Part shown: positions 26,761 to 38,591 of the stretch, piece by piece | How positions within the stretch are numbered: the first letter of the stretch is position 1 | How the letters are laid out: every line of letters starts with the position of its first letter | Assembly: GCA_016178595.1 (NCBI GenBank) | Contig: JACOSY010000009.1 | Coordinates: 1-38,686, forward strand | DNA: 38,686 nucleotides | Direction of reading: 5' to 3' | Origin: Ignavibacteria bacterium | GTDB lineage: Bacteria > Bacteroidota > Ignavibacteria > UBA10030 > SZUA-254 | Translations under genes and position numbers: made by a program | Notes under the pieces: model-generated | Told to the model about the DNA's origin: nothing | The model's database searches: none | The model's input: only the letters and a program-made list of their open reading frames with translations

Positions 26761-26886
26761 TGTTATCTCCGTCTCTTGTCGAAAGTCCCGCACTTATTTG
26801 GCAGGACTTTGACCTTTTATAAAGTGTTATGCGCAGGCAAAGTTCAATACCAAATCACGAACGAGAAAACACCTAACGCTAACGTA

Positions 26887-27417
26887 TCAGCCACCCGACT
26901 TAGTGATTCTCGTCGAGTGTAGTAGGGCTAAGCGCCAACCTGTACCCGAGTGCCGCAGGATTGCGCTCTCAAGCCACTCGCGATTGCGAGTCCCTTTTCG
27001 ATCCTTTATCTCAGACTTCAGGAAGTACACAACGTACGCGATATCGCCATGGATCTTTACCGATCGGAAGTCGAACATATCGCTGCGTTGATAACCACTA
27101 TCCGGGGCCGTCATCATTGTGACGTCACCCTCTATATCGAGGAGCTCGCCGTTCTCGAGGAGTAGGTAATCTTCGGTCAGGAGTGTTCGATATTTCTGCG
27201 CGTCGCCTGCACTGAATGCTGCATAGACTTTCGCAATGGCGTCTTTGACCGCCGTGGAATCGCCCTTTGATAGTGTGTGAGGATCGGCATCGGGTGTGTG
27301 CACAGTCGATGCCGGCGATGTTGTCTCCCCGCTACCTTGGGCTAGGAGATTTGGCCACATAACGCCATACAATACCATAAGTAGCAACAGGTGTGTTAGA
27401 TTAGCAGATTTGGCCAT
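26887..27417 (-). CDS. Cassette gene: secreted DUF4440/SnoaL-like protein
   Basis: This 176-residue protein has a signal peptide (about residues 1-28, ending NLLAQGSG) and a cone-shaped NTF2-like domain: AIAKVYAAFSAGDAQKYRTLL, EDYLLLENGEL, VVYFLKSEIKDR and the C-terminal RLALLHSTRI. NTF2-like proteins of this kind often act as small-molecule binders or have no known enzymatic role. GGAA-type Shine-Dalgarno precedes the ATG. Arms at 26826-26842 and 27468-27484 flank it (16 of 17 positions complementary). It is the last cassette of the array. Confidence 0.82.
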   Translation of the reverse strand: MAKSANLTHLLLLMVLYGVMWPNLLAQGSGETTSPASTVHTPDADPHTLSKGDSTAVKDAIAKVYAAFSAGDAQKYRTLLTEDYLLLENGELLDIEGDVTMMTAPDSGYQRSDMFDFRSVKIHGDIAYVVYFLKSEIKDRKGTRNREWLESAILRHSGTGWRLALLHSTRITKSGG

Positions 27418-27477
27418 GTGAGATTCCTTTCATTAGACTTGCATCAAAACGTCTTGTCAATATTTATCTTTGCTTGC

Positions 27478-27620
27478 GCATAACGTGTGCCGTAAAAATG
27501 CAATACTTTTGCGAACATCTTATTGCCATTTCAGTGAGCAAAAAGTATTGAGCTTCATCAGCGGATGTTGATTTCTTTTTCGATGTAAAACTCTGTGCGT
27601 CATTTTTACGGCTGTTATGC
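27478..27620. repeat. attC-like recombination site 1
   Basis: GCATAAC box (27478-27484), spacer GTGT, stem arm GCCGTAAAAATG (27489-27500), an inner hairpin with CAATACTTTTGC (27501-27512) against GCAAAAAGTATTG (27538-27550), and a linker of about 50 nt. The perfect partner arm CATTTTTACGGC (27601-27612), a single T and GTTATGC (27614-27620) complete it. Total length is 143 bp. It lies between the DUF4440 and DUF3224 cassettes. Confidence 0.85.
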
Positions 27621-27679
27621 GTTCGTGCACGGCGGCATCGTATGCTATCCTCGTCGATTCACTCCTGAATCAGATGCCG

Positions 27680-28090
27680 TCAGTCGAAATTGTATTCCAA
27701 TTCAAAATGACAACCTTCTCGATTGGCCAGATACATTCCAATGCCATGAATACCTTCGAGCTGACCGGTGCCCGAGCCTTTGGCAATCCGCAACGCCGCT
27801 TTTGCCACTCCACCTTCGAACGTGCCATTGTCTTCGAGGACAAAGCTGCCTGATTTTCCTGATAGTGTTCCATCAAAATATATGAGTCCAACGTATGAAG
27901 CGGAGGATTTGTGTTGATCCTTCGGGTCAGAGTGACTGTAGAACATCAGATACTCGACGGATGCCTTGCCTTCGATTTCTCCACTGAGATTGTATTCAAC
28001 AGAGGCTTTCGTCATTTTCTTTTCAGGAGTCATTTGTTGATAACTCAACTCTTCCCACTTCTTCACCGTGTAGGTTCCTTTGGCTTTCAT
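27680..28090 (-). CDS. Cassette gene: DUF3224-family protein
   Basis: This 136-residue cytoplasmic protein matches the DUF3224 pattern: KASVEYNLSGEIEGKASVEYLMFY, SYVGLIYFDGTLSGKSGSFVL and GTFEGGVAKAALRIAKGSGTGQL. These proteins form a small barrel resembling allene oxide cyclase; no function is established. GGAGAT lies upstream of the ATG. Its right-hand site is degenerate. Confidence 0.82.
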   Translation of the reverse strand: MKAKGTYTVKKWEELSYQQMTPEKKMTKASVEYNLSGEIEGKASVEYLMFYSHSDPKDQHKSSASYVGLIYFDGTLSGKSGSFVLEDNGTFEGGVAKAALRIAKGSGTGQLEGIHGIGMYLANREGCHFELEYNFD

Positions 28091-28100
28091 TTCTATCTCC

Positions 28101-28163
28101 GCATAATAGGTTTGTTTATTTGGATTCGAGCCTAAACATTTATTTCTTCAGGGCTTGTTATGC
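28101..28163. repeat. Degenerate attC-like site 2
   Basis: A GTTATGC box (28157-28163) and a decayed GCATAAT box (28101-28107) bound a 63-bp interval. The conserved 12-bp stem and inner hairpin seen in the other sites are absent, so this site looks shortened or inactive. Position and box sequences still mark it as a cassette boundary. Confidence 0.5.
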
Positions 28164-28183
28164 GTTCGTTGCTTTGCGTTCAT

Positions 28184-29551
28184 TCACTTCGTCGCAGAGA
28201 TCAACTCCGCCGGATCGTACGCCGTGCCATCTTTGATCACACGGAATACTTGATGCAGGTTCCTTAGGTCGATGAGCGGATCGGCATTGAGTATTATTAG
28301 GTCGGCAAGTTTGCCCGCTTCGATCGTTCCAAGTTCGTTCGACTTGCCAAGAGCTTTGGCAGCATCCCTTGTTGCCATTAAGATGGCTTGCATCGGAGAT
28401 GAGCCGATTTGGCTTTCCCCGTAGAGAGCCTTGTATTGCTGTCCGTGTACCATCCCGTAAGCTCCGCAATCTGTGCCAAAGACGAGAAGTACTCCTGCAT
28501 TACGAGCACGCCGTACTTCTTGGATGAAACTTGCCTGACGCCGTCTTGCGTCCCAACCCGAGTTCTTCATTTGCTGGGTCTGTCTGTGCACCGAATCGAT
28601 GCCCTGATGGAGCGCGGAGAGGACATCATCGGGATAGAGCTTCATTTGAGATGGATCGAGCGAATCGATGAGGGCCGTAGTGTCGATTCGCTGAAGCCAG
28701 AATGCGCCGCTTTGAGCCATCAAAGACATACCTTTTTGAGCCATCATCTTTAGAATCTGTTCGTCCTTAGCGCGGAGTGGAGCATTGTGCTCGATTCCAT
28801 CTGCCCCCGCGTCGATAGCGAGCTTGACAAGGTCATCAGCGGGGACATCGGTGTGAACGGTCGCCCGCAAACCGAGCCGATGAGCTTCTTCAATAATGAC
28901 GCGAACTTCTTCGAGCGAGGGAATCGGTCGCGAGTGTGTTAAGCGAATCTTGATGACATCTACGCCCAGTGCTGCAAGGGATCGAACCATTGCTCTTGCG
29001 CGATCAGGCCCATCGTATTCCAAAAAGATTGGCTGCTTCTGCGCGGTGGAATCCTTCTTGACCAATTGCATCCCGGCTGCGACGATACGAGGTCCCACGA
29101 TCCTGCCTGCATTGATTTCATCACGAACTTGTAGAACCAAATCCGTTGAGGCCAGATCTCTGACCGTAGTGAAGCCAGAAATCAGATTCAGCTTGACGTT
29201 GGTTAGGACCAACTGCCGCAGCTTCTCTGGTTTGTTCCACTGAGGGGGGAGTTCTCCGACATCGGAAAGTCCAACCATTTCGAGATGCAAGTGAGTATCA
29301 ATGAGTCCAGGCAATACAAACTTGCCAGCCGCATCGATGCGCTGGGCACCGAGAGGAATAAGCACAGTTTCCGTCGTACCGACCTTTGAGATTCGATTTC
29401 CTTCTATGATGACAGCGGCATTCGACAGCGGCGGCTTGCCCGTGCCGTCAATAAGCGTTGCCCCTGAGATCGCGATAGTCTGGAGTTCCTGTGAGTATGA
29501 TAGTGTGGATGAGAGCAACACCAACAATATCCAAAAGATGATCAATCTCAT
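28184..29551 (-). CDS. Cassette gene: secreted amidohydrolase-family enzyme
   Basis: This 455-residue protein has a signal peptide (residues 1-20, ending SSTLSYSQE). The amidohydrolase fold has HxH metal ligands in DTHLHLE, further histidines in ATVHTDVP and GIEHNAP, and the catalytic Asp in VFGTDCGAYG. It resembles secreted imidazolonepropionase/prolidase-like members; the substrate is unknown. The ATG at 29551 has AGGAG upstream. At 1.4 kb it is large for a cassette gene. Confidence 0.87.
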   Translation of the reverse strand: MRLIIFWILLVLLSSTLSYSQELQTIAISGATLIDGTGKPPLSNAAVIIEGNRISKVGTTETVLIPLGAQRIDAAGKFVLPGLIDTHLHLEMVGLSDVGELPPQWNKPEKLRQLVLTNVKLNLISGFTTVRDLASTDLVLQVRDEINAGRIVGPRIVAAGMQLVKKDSTAQKQPIFLEYDGPDRARAMVRSLAALGVDVIKIRLTHSRPIPSLEEVRVIIEEAHRLGLRATVHTDVPADDLVKLAIDAGADGIEHNAPLRAKDEQILKMMAQKGMSLMAQSGAFWLQRIDTTALIDSLDPSQMKLYPDDVLSALHQGIDSVHRQTQQMKNSGWDARRRQASFIQEVRRARNAGVLLVFGTDCGAYGMVHGQQYKALYGESQIGSSPMQAILMATRDAAKALGKSNELGTIEAGKLADLIILNADPLIDLRNLHQVFRVIKDGTAYDPAELISATK

Positions 29552-29584
29552 TGTTAGACTCCTAAGCGAACGCAACGCAATGTT

Positions 29585-29715
29585 GCCCAACGTCCGCAGT
29601 AGCAACGCAGTGCTTTTGCGAACTATCAAATGACAAATTCTCCGTGAGCAAAAGCATTGAGCGAAGTCTATAAAATCATCAAATGACGTGAGCGTCGTTG
29701 CTACTGCTGTTGTGC
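29585..29715. repeat. attC-like recombination site 3
   Basis: GCCCAAC box (29585-29591), spacer GTCC, arm GCAGTAGCAACG (29596-29607), an inner hairpin CAGTGCTTTTGC with GCAAAAGCATTG (29648-29659) followed by AGCG, and a linker. The exact partner CGTTGCTACTGC (29696-29707), T and GTTGTGC (29709-29715) complete it. It is 131 bp long and lies between the amidohydrolase and DUF6624 cassettes. Confidence 0.87.
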
Positions 29716-29736
29716 GAAGTTGCCTACACTGCATCG

Positions 29737-30663
29737 CTAATGTTTATTTTCAGCCGGCACCTTGTACTCGATGCCCCATTGTTTCACATAGTCTTCCAAT
29801 GGACCAAGTTCCACTTCGGCTCTTCGTTTATTAACATTTGGTTCGTCTTCTATCGGATAGATCTCATATTTTCCGTTTTTCATTTGAATCTGGGAACCAT
29901 ATAATTGCTTTTCGCCTTTTCCCATTCTAACCCGGTCAACTAATAAAGCGAATGAGGATTTGCTTAGTTCTCCCTTATTGGTAGCCTCCCGCAATATTGG
30001 CAAGTATTCTTCTTGAGTTTTGAGGTCAGCATGTTGGATGACGAGCCAGGCAGTCGAACTTTGATCTCCAACTAACGATTTACCTGGATATCCATATTCT
30101 TTAATGACTTCTTTGATTCTGCTGAGGTCTAAGGAATCAATTTTGTTTTGTTTGCTCCAAAGTTCCTTCATCTCTTTTGAGTCCCAACCGAACCTCTTCT
30201 GAACTGAGTCCATCATCATTCTGTTTCTTTGATCGGAATCGTTGATGGCTTCAAGTTCTCGCATGAGCGGTTTGTTGAGATGAGATTCATATTCATCGAT
30301 CTTCTTTTCAACTTTGTTGATTAATTCTGCCCATTCCTTAGTCTGATGGAGAGAGTTTAAATCAGTATCCTTTTTCAGGTGATCGATGTATTGCCATCCA
30401 AGGTCCGCTGACTGGTTAAGGTATTCCAATGCTTTAGTTTTGTTCCCAGCTAAAGCCCATGAGCATGCAGCATTATAGTAGCTAAAAAGTGTTCCTTGTT
30501 GAATTGTAAATGCACTGTCGTAATATTCTCCGGAATTTTCATACTCCTTATTGTTGTAACATTTGTCAGCCAGGTTAACTAATTCTTGGTAATTCTGTTG
30601 TTGGCAAGTAAGTACAGAAGCGAGCGCAGTTGATAAAACTGCGATCAAAATTATACGTTTCAT
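29737..30663 (-). CDS. Cassette gene: exported TPR/DUF6624 protein
   Basis: This 308-residue protein has an N-terminal signal sequence (MKRIILIAVLSTALASVLTC). The Cys could be lipidated, though Thr at -1 is not ideal. A TPR-like helical part follows (YYNAACSWALAGNKTKALEYL), then a DUF6624 domain (AWLVIQHADLKTQEEYLPIL, LLVDRVRMGKGEKQLYGSQ). AAGGATCC precedes the ATG. Its GC is low relative to the core genes. Function is unknown. Confidence 0.82.
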   Translation of the reverse strand: MKRIILIAVLSTALASVLTCQQQNYQELVNLADKCYNNKEYENSGEYYDSAFTIQQGTLFSYYNAACSWALAGNKTKALEYLNQSADLGWQYIDHLKKDTDLNSLHQTKEWAELINKVEKKIDEYESHLNKPLMRELEAINDSDQRNRMMMDSVQKRFGWDSKEMKELWSKQNKIDSLDLSRIKEVIKEYGYPGKSLVGDQSSTAWLVIQHADLKTQEEYLPILREATNKGELSKSSFALLVDRVRMGKGEKQLYGSQIQMKNGKYEIYPIEDEPNVNKRRAEVELGPLEDYVKQWGIEYKVPAENKH

Positions 30664-30728
30664 AAGTTTGGATCCTTTCTTGTGTGGGCAACGCCTATGA
30701 GCGAGATCGCTTCTATGATCGAGCGAAT

Positions 30729-30758
30729 GTTGCCCAACGTGTGCAGTGCCCCACATTT
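30729..30758. repeat. Body-less cassette junction 4
   Basis: The GCCCAAC box of the DUF6624 cassette (30732-30738) abuts the left arm of the VOC cassette, GTGCAGTGCCCCACA at 30741-30755. The usual stem and hairpin body is missing. The arm is complementary (14 of 15) to 31499-31513 at the other end of the VOC cassette. The 190 bp that follow, to 30952, contain no gene, though a GTTGGCGGTAGGCG motif at about 30879 resembles repeats of other Bacteroidota. Confidence 0.6.
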
Positions 30759-30952
30759 TCCACGGCCGTTGCCGCAATTCAATTCATTAAGGTTCCAGCG
30801 ACTGCAAGTGTTCTCTTATCAGTCTGCCAAGACAGGCTTTCTTCTCGCTCATCAGCCGCAATTTTCACCAAGCCCTTGTTGGCGGTAGGCGTTCTTTTTC
30901 AGTCCGTTATTTTATTGTCTTGCTACCAAGTTGTTTACCTAATTTTTCAAAC

Positions 30953-31453
30953 TCAATCTTTGGGTTCCCACAATTGAACTTTGTTTCCTTCTGCGTCAAG
31001 GATATGTACAAATTTACCAAAATCTACAGTTTCAATAGTATCCACAATGGTTACACCGTTCGTTTTTAATTCCTCAACAAGTGCTTCCAAGTTTTCAACC
31101 CTGTAATTTATCATAAAATCCTTTGTTGAAGGTTCAAAGTATTTTGTCGTTTCGGGAAACGGAGTCCATTGTGTTTGCCCTTTCTTTGTGCTGTCTGCAC
31201 CTTCATACCACTCAAAAGTTGCCCCATATGGGTTTGTGTTTAAACCAAGATGTTTTTGATACCATTCTGTCATTTTTTTTGGATCTTTGCATTTGAAAAA
31301 AATGCCACCAATGCCTGTTACCTTTTTCATTTTTTGTGTCTCCTCTCGTTGTGTTAGTATTGTTTTAAATGTGAAACCGGAAAGGAACGATGTCGCAATA
31401 AGGAATGCGGCAACGGCAACATGACGGTTCCAAGATTTTGTAGTTCGTTGCAT
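30953..31453 (-). CDS. Cassette gene: VOC-family (glyoxalase-like) protein
   Basis: This 166-residue protein has an N-terminal hydrophobic segment (VAVAAFLIATSFLSGF) that may anchor or export it. One complete VOC fold follows (KVTGIGGIFFKCKDPKKMTEWYQ, HILDAEGNKVQLWEP). VOC proteins include metal-dependent lyases, dioxygenases and resistance proteins; the exact reaction is unknown. AAGGAG precedes the ATG at 31453. The gene is AT-rich compared with its surroundings. Confidence 0.83.
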   Translation of the reverse strand: MQRTTKSWNRHVAVAAFLIATSFLSGFTFKTILTQREETQKMKKVTGIGGIFFKCKDPKKMTEWYQKHLGLNTNPYGATFEWYEGADSTKKGQTQWTPFPETTKYFEPSTKDFMINYRVENLEALVEELKTNGVTIVDTIETVDFGKFVHILDAEGNKVQLWEPKD

Positions 31454-31510
31454 TACTGTTACTCCTTTTCGATGAAGTCTTGTTAGATAATTGTGGATTG
31501 TGGGGCATTG

Positions 31511-31609
31511 CACATAACGTCGCGCGGGAAGTACGGCAGTGCGGGCGAACGTGAGCTGTTCTTGCTCACGATTCGACGGCACGCATTGACGTGCTTCCCG
31601 ATGTTCCGC
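31511..31609. repeat. Repeat copy 1 (attC-like hairpin shared with copies at 34641 and 37303)
   Basis: This 99-bp stretch from CACATAAC to GTTCCGC is identical to the other two copies except for one base (CGTGC instead of CGTAC). It folds as one long hairpin, with GGGAAGTACG and CGTGCTTCCC outside and CGTGAGC and GCTCACG inside. It belongs to the same class as the other sites but uses different stems. Confidence 0.8.
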
Positions 31610-31761
31610 AGCGCTCTCATGAGTGAGCGAATCTTTTGTGGTTGCGCATGTGCTCGATGAACAGATTCACTGTAATAAGTAATTCAAAATGAAATTTACT
31701 AACTGCCTCCTCAAACTTATGGGAGGTTGCGCAACCACTCGCGAGCGAATGGCTGCGGAAC
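31603..31761. other. Empty cassette (no gene)
   Basis: It is bounded by GTTCCGCAGC (31603-31612) and GCTGCGGAAC (31752-31761), perfect inverted arms, with an internal second pair GTGGTTGCGCA (31638-31648) and TGCGCAACCAC (31728-31738). The 159-bp interval has no coding region. It has the arm structure of the gene-bearing cassettes but no gene. Confidence 0.7.
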
Positions 31762-31883
31762 GTTTCGCCAAACAACGCAGCACTTTTGTGCACTCAGATT
31801 GACGAATTTCCTGTGCACAAAAGTGTTGAGCGAGGCATTTAGTAACTGAGCCACATCCAGCGTCGTTGTTTGGCGTGTTAGCC
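31755..31883. repeat. attC-like recombination site 5
   Basis: GCGGAAC box (31755-31761), spacer GTTT, arm CGCCAAACAACG (31766-31777), inner hairpin CAGCACTTTTGTGCAC (31778-31793) with GTGCACAAAAGTGTTG (31813-31828), then AGCGAGGC and the linker. The exact partner CGTTGTTTGGCG (31864-31875), T and GTTAGCC (31877-31883) complete it. It is 129 bp. Confidence 0.88.
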
Positions 31884-31902
31884 GCCGTGCAGCGTTCTGA
31901 GC

Positions 31903-32364
31903 CTACTTCTCCTTCGAATCATGTCTGTGAAATGACTGTTTGAGGCTTGCAAGGTCTCCAGAGGTAGTCGGCCATCCAGTTCCGATTCCCGTTGGATCGG
32001 CATGAAGGATGTTGAGATTCCCTTGGCTTTCCGCACTGCAACTCTTGCTGCCATTTGGGTACATCACGACGAGAGAGACTTTGATACTATTCTTACCAGA
32101 AACATCTTTGAACATCCCCAAGAAGTTGGAGCCGGAGAGTTTTGTCTCAAACGGTGTTTCCTGTTCACCGATAACGAGTGGGCTAGAATCGTTCGATGTT
32201 TGGCATGCATATGCCGATGAAAATCGAATGTGCGGGTTCTGGGAATCGGTTGATTCCACCCGAAGCAGATAGACCCTGTCTGTGGACTGCTCTTGAGCAT
32301 AACTCAAGGCAGAAATGTTGACCCCGATGAGAATCAGGATTGATAGAACACGAAATGCTTTCAT
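31903..32364 (-). CDS. Cassette gene: secreted protein of unknown function
   Basis: This 153-residue protein begins MKAFRVLSILILIGVNISAL and has a signal peptide cleaved near LSYAQEQ. The mature part has two to four cysteines (YACQTSND, KSCSAES) and beta-type segments (VYLLRVESTD, IKVSLVVMYPN). I do not recognise the family. GAGG precedes the ATG at 32364. It is flanked by arms at 31877-31893 and 32419-32436. Confidence 0.75.
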   Translation of the reverse strand: MKAFRVLSILILIGVNISALSYAQEQSTDRVYLLRVESTDSQNPHIRFSSAYACQTSNDSSPLVIGEQETPFETKLSGSNFLGMFKDVSGKNSIKVSLVVMYPNGSKSCSAESQGNLNILHADPTGIGTGWPTTSGDLASLKQSFHRHDSKEK

Positions 32365-32429
32365 AGTAACCTCTAATGAATTGTGTATAGTGATTATGTT
32401 GTTTGTATTACTGCCAAAGCTGCATGGCT

Positions 32430-32556
32430 GCGGAACGTCTCGGCAAACAACGCAATACTTTTGTGAACCTATAATTCTCATTTCCGTGAACAAAAGTATT
32501 GAGCGAGGCTTTTATTAATCATGACATTTCCAGCATCGTTGTTTGCCGTGTTATGT
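32430..32556. repeat. attC-like recombination site 6
   Basis: GCGGAAC box (32430-32436), spacer GTCT, arm CGGCAAACAACG (32441-32452), an inner hairpin CAATACTTTTGTG with CAAAAGTATTG, then AGCGAGGC and a linker. The exact partner CGTTGTTTGCCG (32537-32548), T and GTTATGT (32550-32556) complete it. Against site 5 the arms differ at one position, and both partners changed together (C/G to G/C). Confidence 0.88.
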
Positions 32557-32583
32557 GAAGTGGCGGCACGCACCAATTGTGAT

Positions 32584-33717
32584 TCATTTTGTAGCATACT
32601 CAGCGAGTTTCTTTCTAAGGAAGTCGTTGACGTGTTCCTTGTCGATGCCAAATATGTCCTGAATGGCACGGTAGAGGTCTTCATCCTCTTTCCCGTATGT
32701 CATCAGCTTTCGAATCATCGGAATACCGCCTTGTTCCTCTGCCATTTTGCACAGCAATCCACCGATAAAATATTGAGCATATACATGCAAGTCTACGCCC
32801 TTAAATGTCAAAACATTTACTTCGGGGTGTACATGGAGATACTCATAGTTTCGCCTGAGATGCCACGAAAGATCGTGACCGGAACTGCCTCCCACTAGCG
32901 TTGCATATCCTTCGAGAAAATAATGATGCGCATTGGGGAAGAGCGGGTTGATATAGATATGGACAAATTCGTGCGGATACCACTCGTCCGAACCGCCTGC
33001 ATATATAATTCGATTTGCAACATCCGTGTAGCCGCCCGGCCCACGGATGTTGCCTTCCGCAGCGTAGTAGTCAAATCCAAGAGCTTTGGCAACGCGATCG
33101 AGGTCATCAGCGAAATAGTATTCTACTGGTGCAACCGGCGTCTGCCAGGCAGCAGCGAGTGAATCGATAAATCGGTTCATTCGTTCTGCAAGTACACGAT
33201 TAAATTGATGGTCCGGCGGAAAAATATATTTAATGCTGCCGACTTGTTCTTTTTTCCAAAAACGAGTATTGATAGGAAGGACATTGCATAGCTTGTAAGA
33301 TCCATTTTCCAGACGAGCTCCCGTCTGGAAAATGATGATCACACTGACTTTACCCGAATCTTTGGGCGGCGAGTTGTAGAACATTGTTCGTATGACAAAC
33401 GTATCTGCGAATTTTGAAACGCTGAGGATGTTGATCTTGCAGTGTGACAACCAGGCGTACTGGCTTACTGACCACCATGTGTTGGCGACGAGGTCGTAAG
33501 GCTTATACTGATGCTGTTCCGATTCAACCCAATAAGGGTTTAAATAAAGGCTGTCAGGTTTTGAGTTGAGATAACTTTCCAAAAGTCGGATGACTTGAGA
33601 AATCTCTGAGTTAGAAGTGTCAATACTACTGCTGATCTCAATATGGATTGGAGATTGCTGAGCGAGTATGACTGCCGTCGTGCTCAGGAAAAGGACTATT
33701 GATATTATGCATCTCAT
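32584..33717 (-). CDS. Cassette gene: secreted putative zinc metallopeptidase
   Basis: This 377-residue protein has a signal peptide (MRCIISIVLFLSTTAVILAQ). The zinc-binding motif HEFVH lies in EWYPHEFVHIYINPLF, followed after about 18 residues by the likely third-ligand Glu in FLEGYATLVG, the gluzincin arrangement. The closing helical region (MIRKLMTYGKEDEDLYRAI) is as in peptidase MA-like proteins. The substrate is unknown, and loss of peptidase function cannot be excluded. Its right-hand site is truncated. Confidence 0.8.
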   Translation of the reverse strand: MRCIISIVLFLSTTAVILAQQSPIHIEISSSIDTSNSEISQVIRLLESYLNSKPDSLYLNPYWVESEQHQYKPYDLVANTWWSVSQYAWLSHCKINILSVSKFADTFVIRTMFYNSPPKDSGKVSVIIIFQTGARLENGSYKLCNVLPINTRFWKKEQVGSIKYIFPPDHQFNRVLAERMNRFIDSLAAAWQTPVAPVEYYFADDLDRVAKALGFDYYAAEGNIRGPGGYTDVANRIIYAGGSDEWYPHEFVHIYINPLFPNAHHYFLEGYATLVGGSSGHDLSWHLRRNYEYLHVHPEVNVLTFKGVDLHVYAQYFIGGLLCKMAEEQGGIPMIRKLMTYGKEDEDLYRAIQDIFGIDKEHVNDFLRKKLAEYATK

Positions 33718-33720
33718 AAG

Positions 33721-33808
33721 AGAAGTAGTAGTGAGTAGAGAACCGCATGGAGCGAACTCAACAATTTCCTTTTCAAGAAAGTGAGCGTCGTAAACACGCT
33801 TGTTATGT
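33721..33808. repeat. Truncated attC-like site 7
   Basis: Only the right end is recognisable: a GAGCG...GTGAGCGTCG stretch and the GTTATGT box at 33802-33808. The left AAC box expected next to the metallopeptidase start is absent, and no 12-bp stem can be drawn. This looks like decay of a former site. Confidence 0.5.
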
Positions 33809-33826
33809 GAAGTTGTTTTCCTGCCA

Positions 33827-34594
33827 CTATGATATCCCTGGTTCGGCTCTGTTTGATCGCAATAGTATAATTAGACCAATGAAATAAGGAAAGAAATAGA
33901 CAACTGCTGGCGGCAAAGGCATAATCCATACGATTATTGCTAAGAATAGGCTGAAAACGATGATGGTTGTTCCCCATTTGTTTCCAATCCATCCGCATTT
34001 CCACAATGCTCTTCCGAAGGCCATCGTACCAAGGCATCCTGACACAAAGTACACAAGGGCTAATCCAGACCGCCCTTGATAAAGAAACCTGAACAACTCG
34101 GAACTCTGCGCTGCCACATCTGGATCGCCTGGAGCCAAGGACATGATTGACCACAGTATCATTCTCTGGCCAAGCCAAAAGATCGTTGACACGGTGAAGT
34201 TGATAAAGCCAAGAAGCAAAAGGCCACGATTTGCAATATCCCAGAATGAAGCTGTAAGTATCACAAATCCAGTCAGCACTACCCAATGTCCTGCGAGGAG
34301 CCCTCCGCTGTTGAAGAATAACACTGCGGGGTGTTGGAAATCAGGAGGTCCTGCACTACCGCAAAGCCACACTACAGCACCACCGAGGGTTAGAATAAGT
34401 CCTGCCAGGCTCGGTGTGGATGTCAACTTTACATCTGTACGTAAATTTTTCACAACAGCAAGAACAACGGCTGCGAAATAGAAAATCCCAACTACAATCA
34501 GCACTGTTAGGCCTCGTGATTGATATACGCCGGCGAGAATAAGAAACCATATTGGAAGAAGCCAAAGATACCACATACTGATACGTCGAATCAT
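33827..34594 (-). CDS. Cassette gene: polytopic membrane protein of unknown function
   Basis: This 255-residue protein has about eight hydrophobic segments and little soluble mass (IWFLILAGVYQSRGLTVLIV; LALVYFVSGCLGTMAFG). I recognise no family motif. AAGGAG precedes the ATG. Arms at 33802-33825 and 34630-34654 pair over about 22 of 25 positions, across the gene. Confidence 0.72.
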   Translation of the reverse strand: MIRRISMWYLWLLPIWFLILAGVYQSRGLTVLIVVGIFYFAAVVLAVVKNLRTDVKLTSTPSLAGLILTLGGAVVWLCGSAGPPDFQHPAVLFFNSGGLLAGHWVVLTGFVILTASFWDIANRGLLLLGFINFTVSTIFWLGQRMILWSIMSLAPGDPDVAAQSSELFRFLYQGRSGLALVYFVSGCLGTMAFGRALWKCGWIGNKWGTTIIVFSLFLAIIVWIMPLPPAVVYFFPYFIGLIILLRSNRAEPGIS

Positions 34595-34647
34595 TTTGTT
34601 CTCCTTGAAACAATAATATTTGTCACTTGGGCTGGCAAAACAATTTC

Positions 34648-34850
34648 ACATAACGTCGCGCGGGAAGTACGGCAGTGCGGGCGAACGTGAGCTGTTCTTG
34701 CTCACGATTCGACGGCACGCATTGACGTACTTCCCGATGTTCCGCGCCGTTCGCGAAGCGAACAAGCGGAACAAGGGTGAACGAACAAAAATATTGAGTG
34801 AGGCTTTTCATTCCCAGCCATTACCAACGTCGTTGTTTTGTATGTTAAGC
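34648..34850. repeat. Compound attC-like site 8 containing the 142-bp repeat (copy 2)
   Basis: The ACATAAC box (34648-34654) starts repeat copy 2 (34641-34782), identical to copy 3 at the recombinase. After GGGTGAAC the sequence switches to the right half of an ordinary site (GAACAAAAATATTGAGTGAGG...CGTCG), ending in GTTAAGC (34844-34850). It therefore looks like an empty cassette joined to half a site. The two arms GTTCCGC...GCGGAAC (34739-34772) form a compact hairpin. Confidence 0.8.
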
Positions 34851-34874
34851 GCAGTGCGCCACTGAGGTTATCCG

Positions 34875-35465
34875 TTACAACTCGATTTCTATCCCCAGTC
34901 CGAAACCAAACCAAGTGAGACTCGATCCACCGTCAAACGTATTGAATATGATCGGGTAGCTCGCGTTCGCATCAATAGTCATCTTTTCATCAATTCTGAA
35001 TTGAATACCGACGACAGGCTCTGCTCCGAATTTCGATGCGTTGTCGCTAATGGTAACATTATAACCGGAGACATTTGTGGATGCACTCTCGTTTATCAGA
35101 TACAAACCAAGGTTTATTGCTTGATAGACTCGGACATCGCTTGTGGTGAAAAAGAATCTGTCTCCTATCGTGATTGGGATAACATTGTAAGCAGTAGAAA
35201 AGCTCTGCCCCGATGCATAATCATAATAATCTTTACCACCAAAGTGGAAAAAACCTGACGAAAGTGTGAGTGCGAAATTATCTGAGATAGCGCGGAGAAG
35301 AGAACCTCTGCCAGCAAAACCGACGTTCGTCAAATCATTGAATTTACCTGTCGGCACGCCTCCAGCACCTTCGACTTGCACAAACCACCCAGTACTCGAT
35401 GATGGTTGACTGCTTGCTACGGAGGTTATGGTTACCAGCATACAAAATAAAGCAAAAGCTTTCAT
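34875..35465 (-). CDS. Cassette gene: outer-membrane beta-barrel protein
   Basis: This 196-residue protein has a signal peptide (MKAFALFCMLVTITSVASSQ) and alternating amphipathic strands (WFVQVEGAGGVPTG, FALTLSSGFFHFGG, DRFFFTTSDVRVYQAINLG), ending in an aromatic/glycine strand (FGLGIEIEL). This resembles small OmpA/OprF-like or porin-type barrels of Bacteroidota. GAGGAG precedes the ATG. It is flanked by 19-nt arms at 34844-34862 and 35513-35531 (18 of 19). Confidence 0.82.
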   Translation of the reverse strand: MKAFALFCMLVTITSVASSQPSSSTGWFVQVEGAGGVPTGKFNDLTNVGFAGRGSLLRAISDNFALTLSSGFFHFGGKDYYDYASGQSFSTAYNVIPITIGDRFFFTTSDVRVYQAINLGLYLINESASTNVSGYNVTISDNASKFGAEPVVGIQFRIDEKMTIDANASYPIIFNTFDGGSSLTWFGFGLGIEIEL

Positions 35466-35524
35466 GTTAATTCTCCTCGAATAGTTTTTAATGTTGATGA
35501 ATTAGGTTGCCTGTGGCGCATTGC

Positions 35525-35727
35525 GCTTAACGTTTGGCGTAACCACGCAGCGGTTTTGCGAACTCAAAACGATGCGGCGAAGGCCGCTACAAATGACTTA
35601 TTCATTTCGCGGCCGTAGCCGCACACCAAGAGTGAGCAAAACCGTTGAGCGACCTCAACTGTTGCTTTTAACATCGTTTCAGACGCGCCTATCAACAGAG
35701 GGAGCGACGTGGTTACGCCTGTTAGCT
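35525..35727. repeat. attC-like recombination site 9, with a nested REP-like hairpin
   Basis: GCTTAAC box (35525-35531), spacer GTTT, arm GGCGTAACCACG (35536-35547), inner stem CAGCGGTTTTGC (35548-35559) with GCAAAACCGTTG (35636-35647), then AGCG and a linker. The exact partner CGTGGTTACGCC (35708-35719), T and GTTAGCT (35721-35727) complete it. Between the inner arms lies an extra hairpin at 35573-35623 (TGCGGC...GCCGCA), making this site 203 bp. Confidence 0.87.
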
Positions 35728-35743
35728 GCAGCCGCATTCCCTC

Positions 35744-36505
35744 TTACTTGAGTTTCACTTCTTCAAATAGAAAATCAAATGGTGCAGCCGCCAGTGTCCG
35801 AAAGAGTGTATGAACCTCTCCGGCAAATGACCTTTTGTAAAAGAAGACATAGTCTCTTACAGAAAACCTCTTAAATCGAAGGATCTTAATTTGTGCTGAT
35901 GGGTCAATATGATCACGAATTTGAGTGAACCTTTGGACGTATCGATCCGATGGAGTTCTATCCCGATGGTTGTACACGATCAGTAACTGGCATGCCTGAA
36001 GGTAAGTTTGAATCTCATTCAGTAAGGCATATTTGATAGACCGAGTTTGAGTTGATTTGACTTTGGGAGTTTGAATCCCATTGTCTGGATCGAGAAACCC
36101 AACATCGACTGTTTGAAAAACAGACAATGATTGTCTGAACCAACTCTCTCTATCTACGGCCCTTTGGCTTGGATGGACCGCCTGGAAGGGGAGAGGCTTG
36201 GAAAAGAAAGTTGTCCGACTTGGTAAAATGCCCGATTGTTCAAGTGCATGAATGGACCGTGAGTTATTGACGACTCTCTTTAGAATGCCAAACAGGGTTG
36301 TGTCACATTCACTGAACTTTGTTGACTTCGAGTAGGATGGGTCGAGATAAGAAGTGTAACGCCCATCTCCAGAGCCTTGCTCAACTTTGTCAGTCCGGTA
36401 CCAATTGATGGCCAATCGGACCTGGCGGCTGCTGATCTGACTGAGTTGGCGAAGAAGCACAAACTTGCCAAAATCACCGACATCCCCGGCATACTTGTCT
36501 TGCAT
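35744..36505 (-). CDS. Cassette gene: conserved protein with DPDNG motif, function unknown
   Basis: This 253-residue soluble protein begins MQDKYAGDVGDFGKFVLLRQ and contains VGFLDPDNGIQ in its middle. I recall this conserved hypothetical type (N-terminal DKYAGDVGDxxK, central DPDNG) but know no established function. The DPDNG loop is reminiscent of a catalytic or ligand-binding loop; that is inference. The ATG at 36505 starts the conserved part, with a TTG at 36523 as alternative. Arms at 35721-35736 and 36533-36548 pair 15 of 16. Confidence 0.75.
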   Translation of the reverse strand: MQDKYAGDVGDFGKFVLLRQLSQISSRQVRLAINWYRTDKVEQGSGDGRYTSYLDPSYSKSTKFSECDTTLFGILKRVVNNSRSIHALEQSGILPSRTTFFSKPLPFQAVHPSQRAVDRESWFRQSLSVFQTVDVGFLDPDNGIQTPKVKSTQTRSIKYALLNEIQTYLQACQLLIVYNHRDRTPSDRYVQRFTQIRDHIDPSAQIKILRFKRFSVRDYVFFYKRSFAGEVHTLFRTLAAAPFDFLFEEVKLK

Positions 36506-36541
36506 AGTACTACGGACCTTCAATTAATCGCGTGCGGTTGC

Positions 36542-36668
36542 AGCTAACGTGTCGCAAAACACCGCAGCATTTTTGTGAGCATACGAATCTCATTCTCAGC
36601 GAACAAAAATGTTGAGCGAGGCTTTTCATACTGAGCCAATTCCAGCGTCGGTGTTTTGTGTGTTATGT
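36542..36668. repeat. attC-like recombination site 10
   Basis: AGCTAAC box (36542-36548), spacer GTGT, arm CGCAAAACACCG (36553-36564), an inner hairpin CAGCATTTTTGTG with CAAAAATGTTG, then AGCGAGGC and a linker. The partner CGGTGTTTTGTG (36649-36660, one G-T pair), T and GTTATGT (36662-36668) complete it. The stop of the upstream membrane-protein gene lies inside this site. Confidence 0.87.
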
Positions 36669-37288
36669 GAAGTTGGCTGAAGAGCCTCTTGCTTGGATTT
36701 TAGAATATTATATGCATCCAGCAGAGAAACATAATAGTTGAACAGCGTTCTCTGCCAGGTCATGATTGATAAAAGTGTGAATGGGATCGCTATAAGGAAA
36801 ATAATTAGATAAGCGATCCCCCAATAATAGTTTTCGGATATTGGGAGTTGCTTATAAATCGGGAGAAATCTTTTGAGAATAAAGAAAAGGGTACTAACGA
36901 TGATAATGATAAAATTGACAGAAGTTGATTTCAGCACTCTGGCCTGATTGAGCAATCGGTCCAAGTATTGTGCAACATCATTATTAAAGCAACGAATGTA
37001 TAACATCATATAATGAGGTTTTTCCGGAAACTCCAGTTTGCCGTGTCGCTTTATGACTTGGAGAGGATGAATGCCAGAAAAAAAGGGTGACACTACAAAA
37101 TTGTCGAAAATAAGTCCAAGAGTATAGGACACCGCAAATAACGTGATAGATATAACTGGTATCCAGTCCTTGAGAACTTCAAAATGGATCCATTCATAAC
37201 CCGCTATGCTAAAGGTGAGTAAGCAAATCCAAGTGAGAATTTGGAATCCAATAATTACGATTTCAACGAGTAAAGATTTAGCAGTCAT
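36626..37288 (-). CDS. Cassette gene: membrane protein of unknown function
   Basis: This 220-residue protein has four hydrophobic helices in two pairs: about residues 8-65 (IVIIGFQILTWICLLTFSIA; VISITLFAVSYTLGLIF) and 125-175 (FIIIIVSTLFFILKRF; IAYLIIFLIAIPFTLL). A conserved-looking soluble loop separates them. I do not recognise the family. The last 15 or so residues are encoded by the attC-like site. It is the first cassette next to the recombinase, flanked by arms at 36662-36681 and 37296-37316 (19 of 20). Confidence 0.72.
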   Translation of the reverse strand: MTAKSLLVEIVIIGFQILTWICLLTFSIAGYEWIHFEVLKDWIPVISITLFAVSYTLGLIFDNFVVSPFFSGIHPLQVIKRHGKLEFPEKPHYMMLYIRCFNNDVAQYLDRLLNQARVLKSTSVNFIIIIVSTLFFILKRFLPIYKQLPISENYYWGIAYLIIFLIAIPFTLLSIMTWQRTLFNYYVSLLDAYNILKSKQEALQPTSHNTQNTDAGIGSV

Positions 37289-38340
37289 ATGATTGTTTCA
37301 GCCAATTTCACATAACGTCGCGCGGGAAGTACGGCAGTGCGGGCGAACGTGAGCTGTTCTTGCTCACGATTCGACGGCACGCATTGACGTACTTCCCGAT
37401 GTTCCGCGCCGTTCGCGAAGCGAACAAGCGGAACAAGGGTGAACAATTTATGCTTTGGATCGGGGGGAAGATGTTCGTTATCCATAATCAGGAAATCGAG
37501 GGGGCTGAGGATTCGCTCCAACGAACGGTTGCTTACGTGCGTATAAATCTCAGTCGTTTTTACACTTTGATGCCCAAGCAATGCTTGAATATAACGCAGA
37601 TCGGTGCCACGTTCAAGCAAGTGCGTCGCAAAGGAATGCCGGAGCGTGTGCATCGATGCCGGCTTGGTAATTCTTGCTGCCTTTACAGCGCGTTCAGTAA
37701 CTGCCTGAAGACTGCGAGCTGCCAAATGATGATCCGCAGTGTGGCTGGGAAATAACCAACCGCTCGTTCCAAGATTATATTTCTTCCAGTAGAGAAGCAA
37801 CTGCTTCCTCAATGATTCGGGAAATATTGTATAGCGATCGCGTTTTCCCTTGGCTCCACGTATGTGGATGAGTCCTCGTTGTCCATCGATATCTTCTATC
37901 CGTAATTTCACCAATTCACTGACACGCAATCCGCATCCGTACGCGAGCATGAGCATCGTCCGGTGTTTGAGATTTGGTACACATGCGAATAGCCGTTTGA
38001 CTTCGTCCTCGTTCAGCACATCCGGCAGCTTTTTTTCCTTCAATGGACGTGGAAGAGATCCAATGACAAACGGTCGTTTGTACAAGTCGACATACAGCAA
38101 TCGTAACGCATTGAATACTTGATTCACCGTGCTCGCTGCTTGCTCCTCTTTTATGAGAAGATGAAGCAGGTAGTTTCGAATGTCATCATCAATCAGTTCT
38201 CGTGGATGACGGGGATGAAAATACCGTACAAACTTTCGAAGAGAACTGATATATGCTTTTATCGTCTTCAGACTATAGTTGCGGAGCCGTAGCTCGCGCC
38301 TGACCGTCTCGAACAATCCTTGCCGCTTCGCTTCAGACAT
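37285..38340 (-). CDS. Tyrosine recombinase of the cassette array (IntI/Xer-like, no IntI insertion)
   Basis: This 351-residue protein has a SAM-like core-binding domain (residues 8-95) and a catalytic domain with the full set R139, K164, H231, R234, H257 and Y266 (GCGLRVSEL, GAKGKRDRY, HTLRHSFATHLL, LLGHQSVKTTEIYTHV). Between PESL (175-178) and WLFPS (195-199) there are only about 16 residues. IntI1 has about 50 there, including the integron-specific additional domain. The ATG at 38340 has GGAGG upstream. From about residue 300 the frame runs into the 142-bp repeat, so the last 50 residues are repeat-encoded. It shares orientation with the cassettes, as in inverted integrons. Confidence 0.88.
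   Translation of the reverse strand: MSEAKRQGLFETVRRELRLRNYSLKTIKAYISSLRKFVRYFHPRHPRELIDDDIRNYLLHLLIKEEQAASTVNQVFNALRLLYVDLYKRPFVIGSLPRPLKEKKLPDVLNEDEVKRLFACVPNLKHRTMLMLAYGCGLRVSELVKLRIEDIDGQRGLIHIRGAKGKRDRYTIFPESLRKQLLLYWKKYNLGTSGWLFPSHTADHHLAARSLQAVTERAVKAARITKPASMHTLRHSFATHLLERGTDLRYIQALLGHQSVKTTEIYTHVSNRSLERILSPLDFLIMDNEHLPPDPKHKLFTLVPLVRFANGAEHREVRQCVPSNREQEQLTFARTAVLPARRYVKLAETII
37303..37444. repeat. 142-bp repeat copy 3 (candidate attI-adjacent empty cassette)
   Basis: It is identical to 34641-34782. It contains the ACATAAC box (37310-37316), a long hairpin with GGGAAGTACG and CGTACTTCCC arms and an inner CGTGAGC/GCTCACG. It ends in a compact hairpin at 37401-37434 where GTTCCGC and GCGGAAC arms are separated by almost nothing. 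It abuts the recombinase coding end, where an integron would have its attachment site. Confidence 0.82.
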
Positions 38341-38354
38341 TTCTCCTCCCTCCC
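38341..38354 (-). promoter_or_regulatory. Strong ribosome-binding site of the recombinase
   Basis: On the minus strand GGGAGGGAGGAGAA lies directly before the ATG at 38340. It supports this start over the ATG at 38466, whose reading would pass through the leader hairpin. Confidence 0.8.
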
Positions 38355-38356
38355 AT

Positions 38357-38401
38357 AAAAAACCCGTAGATTGAAAACGCTGGTCGTTTCGTCCTACGGG
38401 T
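38357..38401 (-). terminator. Terminator-like hairpin in the recombinase leader
   Basis: On the minus strand ACCCGTAG (38401-38394) pairs perfectly with CTACGGGT (38369-38362). A second inner pair GAAACG/CGTTTTC closes the loop, and TTTTT follows (38361-38357). It sits just upstream of the recombinase RBS. It may attenuate recombinase expression, or be the terminator of an upstream gene, although none is visible on that strand. Confidence 0.6.
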
Positions 38402-38591
38402 CTCAAGAATAATATCTTCTGTTCAAACCCTCCGCACGACCATCCCAGCAAACGTCCCATAAACAAAACGTTATTGGGACCACTCTAAGACTAAGCTAAA
38501 CTGATTAGGTCGAATGTAAGAGTTCTCCATCGCAATGTCAAATCAACGCATTGACTCATTAAAAATCTAAATAAAACGGAGGTATTGCCTC
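38402..38591. other. Intergenic region between recombinase leader and right-edge ORF
   Basis: AT-rich, with no gene. It presumably holds divergent promoters for the recombinase and the rightmost ORF. An AACGTTATTGG stretch near 38468 resembles the core boxes of the cassette sites, but it lacks any stem. I see no LexA-type box. Confidence 0.3.

Follow-up and report, generated by a model that had tools for sequence, protein, structure and literature searches.

The window analysed here is the whole 38,686-nt contig JACOSY010000009.1 of an Ignavibacteria bacterium (assembly GCA_016178595.1). Its right-hand part carries a row of genes, six complete folded sites and, on the reverse strand beyond the last of these sites, the gene of a tyrosine recombinase (P0001). 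A 142-nt repeat, termed D1, is present in three copies, two of them identical. This region is most probably an integron-like array, run by a recombinase of the IntI/Xer group without the I2 insert and acting on folded sites that mostly lack an extrahelical base. The anatomy of the sites, their covariation, the pairing of ends cassette by cassette, one cassette boundary at AAC, the linkage to the integrase, the absence of I2 and the rarity of extrahelical bases are read directly from the sequence.

All six sites share one layout, at the positions and in the form given by the initial annotation (Table 1). In the five sites that were aligned, the AAC of the left 7-nt box is followed by a 4-nt GTNY spacer, a single T stands ahead of the GTT of the right box, and the hairpin inside closes in TTGAG; the site at 35525 has the same arms and spacers enclosing a long insert. 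The 12-nt arms of the aligned sites pair in full with one G.T pair, in the site at 36542, and the earlier count of five perfectly complementary sites is correct if this G.T is taken as imperfect. The AAC/GTT boxes and the unpaired central spacer of attC sites are thus present, the spacer being 4 nt on one side and 1 nt on the other (4/1), and the L stems formed by the arms are uninterrupted in all six sites, without the extrahelical base of integron sites. The fuller attC box is RYYYAAC, a consensus that is only loosely kept here. The 7-nt boxes within one site pair partially, over 7, 6, 4, 6 and 5 of the 7 positions in the five aligned sites with G.T allowed, and in many cassettes a longer repeat begins at the box, its partner being the box at the opposite end of the same cassette.

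A covariance model, R1, was built from five window sites and searched in other genomes; these multi-genome searches scored the best few candidates per genome, so the site counts are lower bounds. Aligned to R1, 100 sites from the window's genome and its relatives have pairs in 94.7% of cells. Their covariation score of 0.597 compares with 0.170 after column shuffling and no more than 0.080 when partners are slid; fitting the alignment to R1 itself favours structure. The strong covariation and abundant compensatory change bear out the earlier reading that the arms differ in sequence yet stay complementary. A scan without the model (AAC-spacer-stem...stem-spacer-GTT) gave 130 matches in 288 kb of array loci and 8 in the reversed sequences, the 130 covering both strands, with most sites probably counted twice. 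R1 sites are present in at least 49 of 100 relatives, often about 1 kb apart, and in at least 12 of 296 genomes of an even phylum sample, 10 of these in the window's order. At E<1e-7, 12 strong sites were located in the genome to which the window belongs, six of them inside the window. The covariance search that the initial annotation had proposed returned intergenic matches in related genomes, but scattered copies as well.

The ends of the cassettes carry a second layer of pairing. For 73 cassettes between neighbouring sites, from 23 loci including the window, the left end was compared with the reverse complement of the right end (G.T allowed, one mismatch). The median agreement is 18 positions, and 44 of the 73 cassettes reach at least 15 positions, the figure for mispaired ends of these loci being 9 of 344. 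In Ignavibacteria the two ends often make up an inverted repeat, some 20 bp long and particular to its cassette, in which the G.T at position 11 is fixed. G almost always occupies position 8. At position 11, 53 of the 73 cassettes have a G.T pair, with G on the left and T on the right; since this pair is equally common in mispaired ends, its conservation is one of sequence and not of covariation. A GTT-anchored repeat scan of the array loci found the position-11 mark in 65 of 73 matches, while three shuffles gave none. One relative (G008) holds the same cassette in two places, the copies being alike inward from the left AAC and unlike outside it, and a cassette common to two genera (88% over 865 nt) has, at the 3' end of its gene, the 3' portion of the site. 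These copies indicate that site and gene move together, with the polarity of integron cassettes. Nine non-integrase proteins scanned in the window comprise three with Pfam matches over the cut-off (glyoxalase, DUF6624 and DUF3224), one just under it and five with none, and these unrelated genes are putative mobile cassettes.

Table 1. Folded sites, putative cassettes, D1 repeats and recombinase gene of the window
Feature	Position	Strand	Description
attC-like site 1, complete	27478-27620	+	GCATAAC, GTGT, 12-bp L stem, inner hairpin, T, GTTATGC
attC-like site 2, complete	29585-29715	+	
attC-like site 3, complete	31755-31883	+	
attC-like site 4, complete	32430-32556	+	
attC-like site 5, complete	35525-35727	+	inner hairpin with long insert
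attC-like site 6, complete	36542-36668	+	closest to integrase
Cassette	26826-27484	-	complementary ends (GTTATGCGCAGGCAAAG / reverse complement GTTATGCGCAAGCAAAG); gene 26887-27417
Cassette	33802-34654	-	end inverted repeat; gene 33827-34594; left site is a 3' half alone (~33781-33808)
Cassette	34844-35531	-	end inverted repeat; gene 34875-35465, OMP_b-brl just below Pfam cut-off; left site truncated
Cassette	35721-36548	-	end inverted repeat; gene 35744-36523, no Pfam match
First cassette after integrase	36662-37316	-	end inverted repeat; open frame 36626-37288 enters site 6; no Pfam match
Repeat D1, copy a	31505-31646	+	77% to reference copy; weakly attC-like
Repeat D1, copy b	34641-34782	+	followed by remnant of a site, 34753-34850
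Repeat D1, copy c	37303-37444	+	identical to b; at 3' end of integrase gene
Tyrosine recombinase P0001	37444-38340	-	IntI-like, without I2 insert; open frame 37285-38466

Between 30738 and 31518, a right cassette end (GTTGCCCAAC) abuts sequence complementary to the end at 31518, and by eye the junction looks as though the site between two cassettes was lost.

Non-mobile or self-mobile repeats lying between genes by chance, such as terminators, elements like REP (repetitive extragenic palindromic) or MITE (miniature inverted-repeat transposable element) sequences, or IS200/IS605-like hairpins, would also give perfect hairpins, copies outside arrays and a repeat copied nearly unchanged, as D1 is. 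Copied repeats would not have arms that differ between sites yet pair, the end pairing belongs to the cassette and not to the site, the arrays adjoin one recombinase family in two phyla, and no Rfam family (REP, terminator or other known RNA family) is matched in the window. Chance repeats are for these reasons a very improbable account of the sites.

The P0001 protein contains the Phage_integrase and Phage_int_SAM_4 domains. Among NCBIfam models it is best matched by TIGR02249, for integron integrases, at 245.1 bits, below the cut-off of 265, and this match falls in two stretches, the best of which ends at profile position 177. By sequence, the nearest solved structure is that of V. cholerae IntI4/IntIA (2a3v), matched in two stretches flanking the insert. 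The predicted model of P0001 (predicted local distance difference test, pLDDT, 80.7; predicted template modelling score, pTM, 0.60) likewise has 2a3v (VchIntIA) as its top Foldseek match and is too loose in domain arrangement for more than this best match. Residues R139, K164, H231, R234, H257 and Y266, which we take to be the catalytic residues of tyrosine recombinases, are invariant across 19 sequences. The length of I2 was counted in an alignment over the 52-residue I2 window of IntI1, as an earlier regular-expression measure reached only some rows. All 44 Ignavibacteria rows hold 14-20 residues in this I2 region, and all 61 more distant rows hold 14-23, some of the rows counted being near-copies, compared with the full 52 residues in 32 of 32 true IntI proteins. 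The integrase and an array are found on one contig in the window and in G008, G013, G015, G030 and G004. Named relatives of P0001 at 51-87% identity carry titles including Ignavibacteria, Ignavibacteriales, Bacteroidetes and Chlorobi, and all come from metagenome assemblies. A scan of viral contigs gave no relative. A Persicobacter plasmid encodes a relative at 43% (L116, 8001-8834), and the sequence downstream of it appears to resemble an IS91-type transposase.

The sites might instead be ordinary divergent attC sites served by a true IntI with I2, present or past, with the linked recombinase as a bystander. True IntI is common here, with proteins over the IntI cut-off in 84 of 296 phylum genomes, and it is present in 23 of 100 relatives; the assemblies of some site-rich genomes (G065) contain IntI but lack an I2-less enzyme. 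The window's own genome, however, has no match above that cut-off, and R1 has no match at E<=0.5 in 20 true-IntI loci and one class 1 integron (one match at 0.52). Around true IntI, most sites have a spacer of 5-6 nt after AAC, then a stem whose 3' arm carries one extrahelical base, and 2 nt before GTT. Because the first loci compared had been picked by the bulge-less R1, the comparison of stems was redone on loci chosen by their integrase alone, namely 48 I2-less loci from three groups with arrays and 40 IntI loci. Uninterrupted and bulged stems number 34 and 7 in the former and 2 and 49 in the latter. By group, the ratio is 13:4 in 18 Ignavibacteria loci, 18:2 in 24 Patescibacteria loci and 3:1 in 6 Bacillota loci, and reversed-sequence matches number 0, 5 and 0 in these groups and 8 for IntI. 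The sites also track the I2-less enzyme across genomes. They are found in 25 of the 33 relatives with an I2-less integrase and in 24 of the 67 without (p=2.5e-4), and five or more sites in 15 of 33 and 4 of 67, respectively (p=6e-6). This integrase set comprises best E values up to 2.1e-50 and excludes a fragment in G049, and the sets were transferred by hand. No link to true IntI appears among the same 100 relatives (sites in 11 of 23 with it and 38 of 77 without, p=1). Taken with these counts, service by a true IntI is an improbable origin for the sites.

The same comparison separates the parts of the earlier suggestion that the sites may form a class distinct from attC. The mostly uninterrupted stem is a departure from the canonical layout, and these fold-conserved, attC-like sites between cassettes do lie outside that layout. 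The 4/1 spacer asymmetry was dropped as a diagnostic mark, because the phylum's canonical sites have unequal spacers as well (5/2 or 6/2). Pairing of ends past the 7-nt box had been considered unique to the I2-less system, and this was narrowed since canonical Bacteroidota cassettes (IntI loci L228-L267) also pair past the 7-nt R box, to about 11 positions. With the same finder, end pairing has a median of 14 positions in I2-less cassettes, 17 of 35 reaching at least 15, versus a median of 11 and 2 of 25 in canonical ones; mispaired controls give 4 of 106 and 0 of 60, respectively. The position-11 G.T is present in 24 of 35 I2-less cassettes versus 1 of 25 canonical ones. In G019 and G023, true IntI and an I2-less integrase are encoded together in single genomes. 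In a Sphingobacteriaceae locus with an I2-less integrase (L137), one of 32 named loci from outside Ignavibacteria, Patescibacteria and Bacillota, both stem-type matches are bulged and two end repeats are present, possibly marking an intermediate or a different system.

The I2-less system is present in Patescibacteria as well. Relatives of the integrase at 40-46% identity have titles including Magasanikbacteria, Kuenenbacteria, Abawacabacteria, Dojkabacteria, Parcubacteria and Kerfeldbacteria, and the sites there have the 4/1 geometry and an uninterrupted stem. A scan requiring this geometry gave 19 candidates in 62 loci versus 5 in the reversed control, and in a scan of 80 named loci without this demand 4/1 was still the commonest geometry (18 of 50). 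A second model, R2, was built from seven Patescibacteria sites, whose six source genomes are among the 18 tested. It finds sites in 17 of these 18 genomes, or 11 of 12 with the source genomes left out, and at E<=1e-5 in at least 49 of 286 Patescibacteria genomes, one of them a source. The covariation score of 31 Patescibacteria sites is 0.534, compared with 0.128 when shuffled. One array, in G409, has 17 sites over about 28 kb in a single direction, the last one 2.8 kb before the integrase; products of its cassettes include a methyltransferase and a 2'-5' RNA ligase. The end pairs in this genome (n=15) agree over 8-26 positions, while the mispaired mean is 6.0. Between its last site and the integrase lie a HaeIII-type restriction enzyme and a C-5 methylase (L300, 11464-13448), in a segment bordered by matching ends as judged by eye. 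The system is probably found in a few Bacillota too. In Pseudobacteroides cellulosolvens, downstream of the integrase gene come end repeats bearing the position-11 mark, with spacers that differ and vary (by eye). Many bacteria with tiny genomes, along with relatives of Ignavibacteria, seem to maintain exchangeable sets of genes delimited by folding DNA sites, under a recombinase without the part considered essential for reading such folds.

In the proposed mechanism, a cassette would consist of one gene and the folded site at its 3' end. One strand of the site would fold into the 12-bp L stem, the asymmetric 4/1 unpaired spacer and an R stem from AAC/GTT. The enzyme would bind the R and L stems and cut within AAC/GTT, at the AAC on the side with more spacer nucleotides, in the manner of IntI at the R box, and whole cassettes would be exchanged. 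The Ignavibacteria R stem (about 20 bp, with G.T at position 11) would be complete only with both ends of one cassette joined, as in an excised circle. In the array its outer part would be partly mismatched because the flanks come from different cassettes, and the complete stem in the circle could bias the reaction to insertion. A system without extrahelical bases would need other strand marks, and the spacer asymmetry and the fixed G.T are candidates for this role. Recombination on double strands, in which the inverted repeats serve as duplex arms in the way dif does for XerCD and the fold is unused, would suit an enzyme without I2, which PMC7790495 and PMC4792948 describe as the reader of extrahelical bases that confers single-strand recombination. 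Duplex recognition would not need pairing, however, and the arm sequence varies widely while pairing persists, making this mode of recognition unlikely.

Four Ignavibacteria relatives were inspected by eye, and in each an attI-like hairpin directly follows the 3' end of the integrase gene. In G030 it reads AAC, A, a 13-bp hairpin, AGAT and GTT; G008 is similar, and G013 and G015 are less regular. Judged by eye, most of 14 Patescibacteria loci have a AACTCGTTT.TATACGAA-like site 5' of this gene. The D1 copies of the window match R1 weakly (E 0.11-0.27); a short palindrome (GTTCCGC...GCGGAAC) at the end of copies b and c has the look of an empty mini-cassette.

Several observations weigh against an integron-like array served by the I2-less enzyme. 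Recombination, the cut, the single-strand fold in the cell, the choice of strand and the circles are all inferred from sequence. Six of the 12 strong sites of the window's genome lie on other contigs outside arrays, one of them with a complete single cassette, so the scatter without cassette context that the initial annotation had named as refuting its view is found in part. The window has no recognizable attI, D1 occupying that place. Ten left ends in the window were tested, the three D1 ends aside, and five have a strong partner; those at 27614, 28157, 29709, 31877 and 32550 do not. In G008, the likeness of the two cassette copies extends 8 nt beyond AAC on the right side, and one copy is divided between two contig ends (98.4% over 319 nt and 100% over 141 nt). 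In G409, 11 of the 15 end pairs reach just 8-10 positions, and at least 15 positions are reached in 4 of 16 other Patescibacteria cassettes. A minority of sites is bulged (7 of 41 in the 48 I2-less loci), and all 80 named integrase loci together have 40 uninterrupted and 10 bulged stems (10 of 50), with 8 and 5 in the reversed control. The 32 other named loci, mostly from other Bacteroidota, show no signal, with 6 uninterrupted and 3 bulged stems versus 8 reversed matches, and most relatives in other groups therefore show no such array. Among the 49 site-bearing relatives, 24 have no I2-less integrase in the assembly (G049 of these has the fragment), and some have a true IntI instead, such as G065 with its 17 sites. 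The genomes are almost all metagenome assemblies. A partner-end search for sites outside arrays succeeded for 1 of 8. The one success speaks for the cassette reading: this solitary site with its cassette, on another contig of the window's genome (C15; L057, 2953-3661), has a 19/20 end repeat and no second site was found there, the cassette apparently being inserted elsewhere.

The array resembles integrons (IntI, attI and attC) in its folded sites, AAC/GTT boxes, asymmetric unpaired spacer, approximately one gene per cassette, position adjoining a tyrosine recombinase and cassette boundary at AAC/GTT. Unlike integrons, the I2-less system has no I2 insert, mostly no extrahelical base, and spacers of 4/1 rather than 5-6/2, and in Ignavibacteria it has longer end pairing and the fixed G.T. 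The array is also placed differently, 3' of the integrase gene in Ignavibacteria and 5' in Patescibacteria. Complete canonical integrons are reported in Ignavibacteriae (PMC9024848). A recombinase without I2 and a stem without extrahelical bases are shared with XerCD and the folded single-strand attachment site of CTXphi, as described in PMC4792948. That site, unlike the I2-less system, is a phage site used by host dimer-resolution enzymes. XerCD and CTXphi are not known to form cassette arrays. PMC8138268, which treats an integron-like subgroup of simple tyrosine recombinases, regards the insertion as indispensable to the working of integrons, and the portion consulted ties members lacking it to no array or kind of site. 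PMC2727003 reports that deletion of the extrahelical bases in both partners abolishes attC x attC recombination by IntI1 and that VchIntIA needs them too, while attC x attI recombination without them is about sixfold lower in rate with looser strand choice. A literature search of titles and abstracts, with preprints outside its scope, found no description of an I2-less integron or of integrons in Patescibacteria. The system would be a natural cassette system missing both halves of the recognition together, the helix and the extruded bases, which suggests that strand choice may rest on other features and makes the origin of integrons directly testable. Searches for the IntI insert or for canonical attC would probably miss it, and the cassette pools of Ignavibacteria and Patescibacteria may therefore be largely uncounted.

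A tree was built from 52 chosen rows, with two Xer-like proteins of the window's genome, taken by inference as XerC and XerD, as the outgroup. The clades of IntI (100/100), Patescibacteria (100/99) and Ignavibacteria (98/92) are recovered, and IntI joins Patescibacteria rather than standing outside all I2-less enzymes, at a support of 80/64. An I2-less ancestor of IntI is weakly favoured by this placement, and the alternative is that I2 may have been lost. More tentatively, and with some doubt on our part, integrons could predate I2, with IntI and bulged attC sites arising within a broad I2-less group of Ignavibacteria, Patescibacteria and some Bacillota; if true, this would answer whether attC or the domain that reads it came first. 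A quick tree of 124 rows has one very long branch and leaves the position of IntI unsettled. A contig titled Altiarchaeales archaeon carries one R2 site adjoining an I2-less integrase (L166, 9649-9734), and since the quick tree puts this enzyme with those of Patescibacteria, the contig may be mis-binned.

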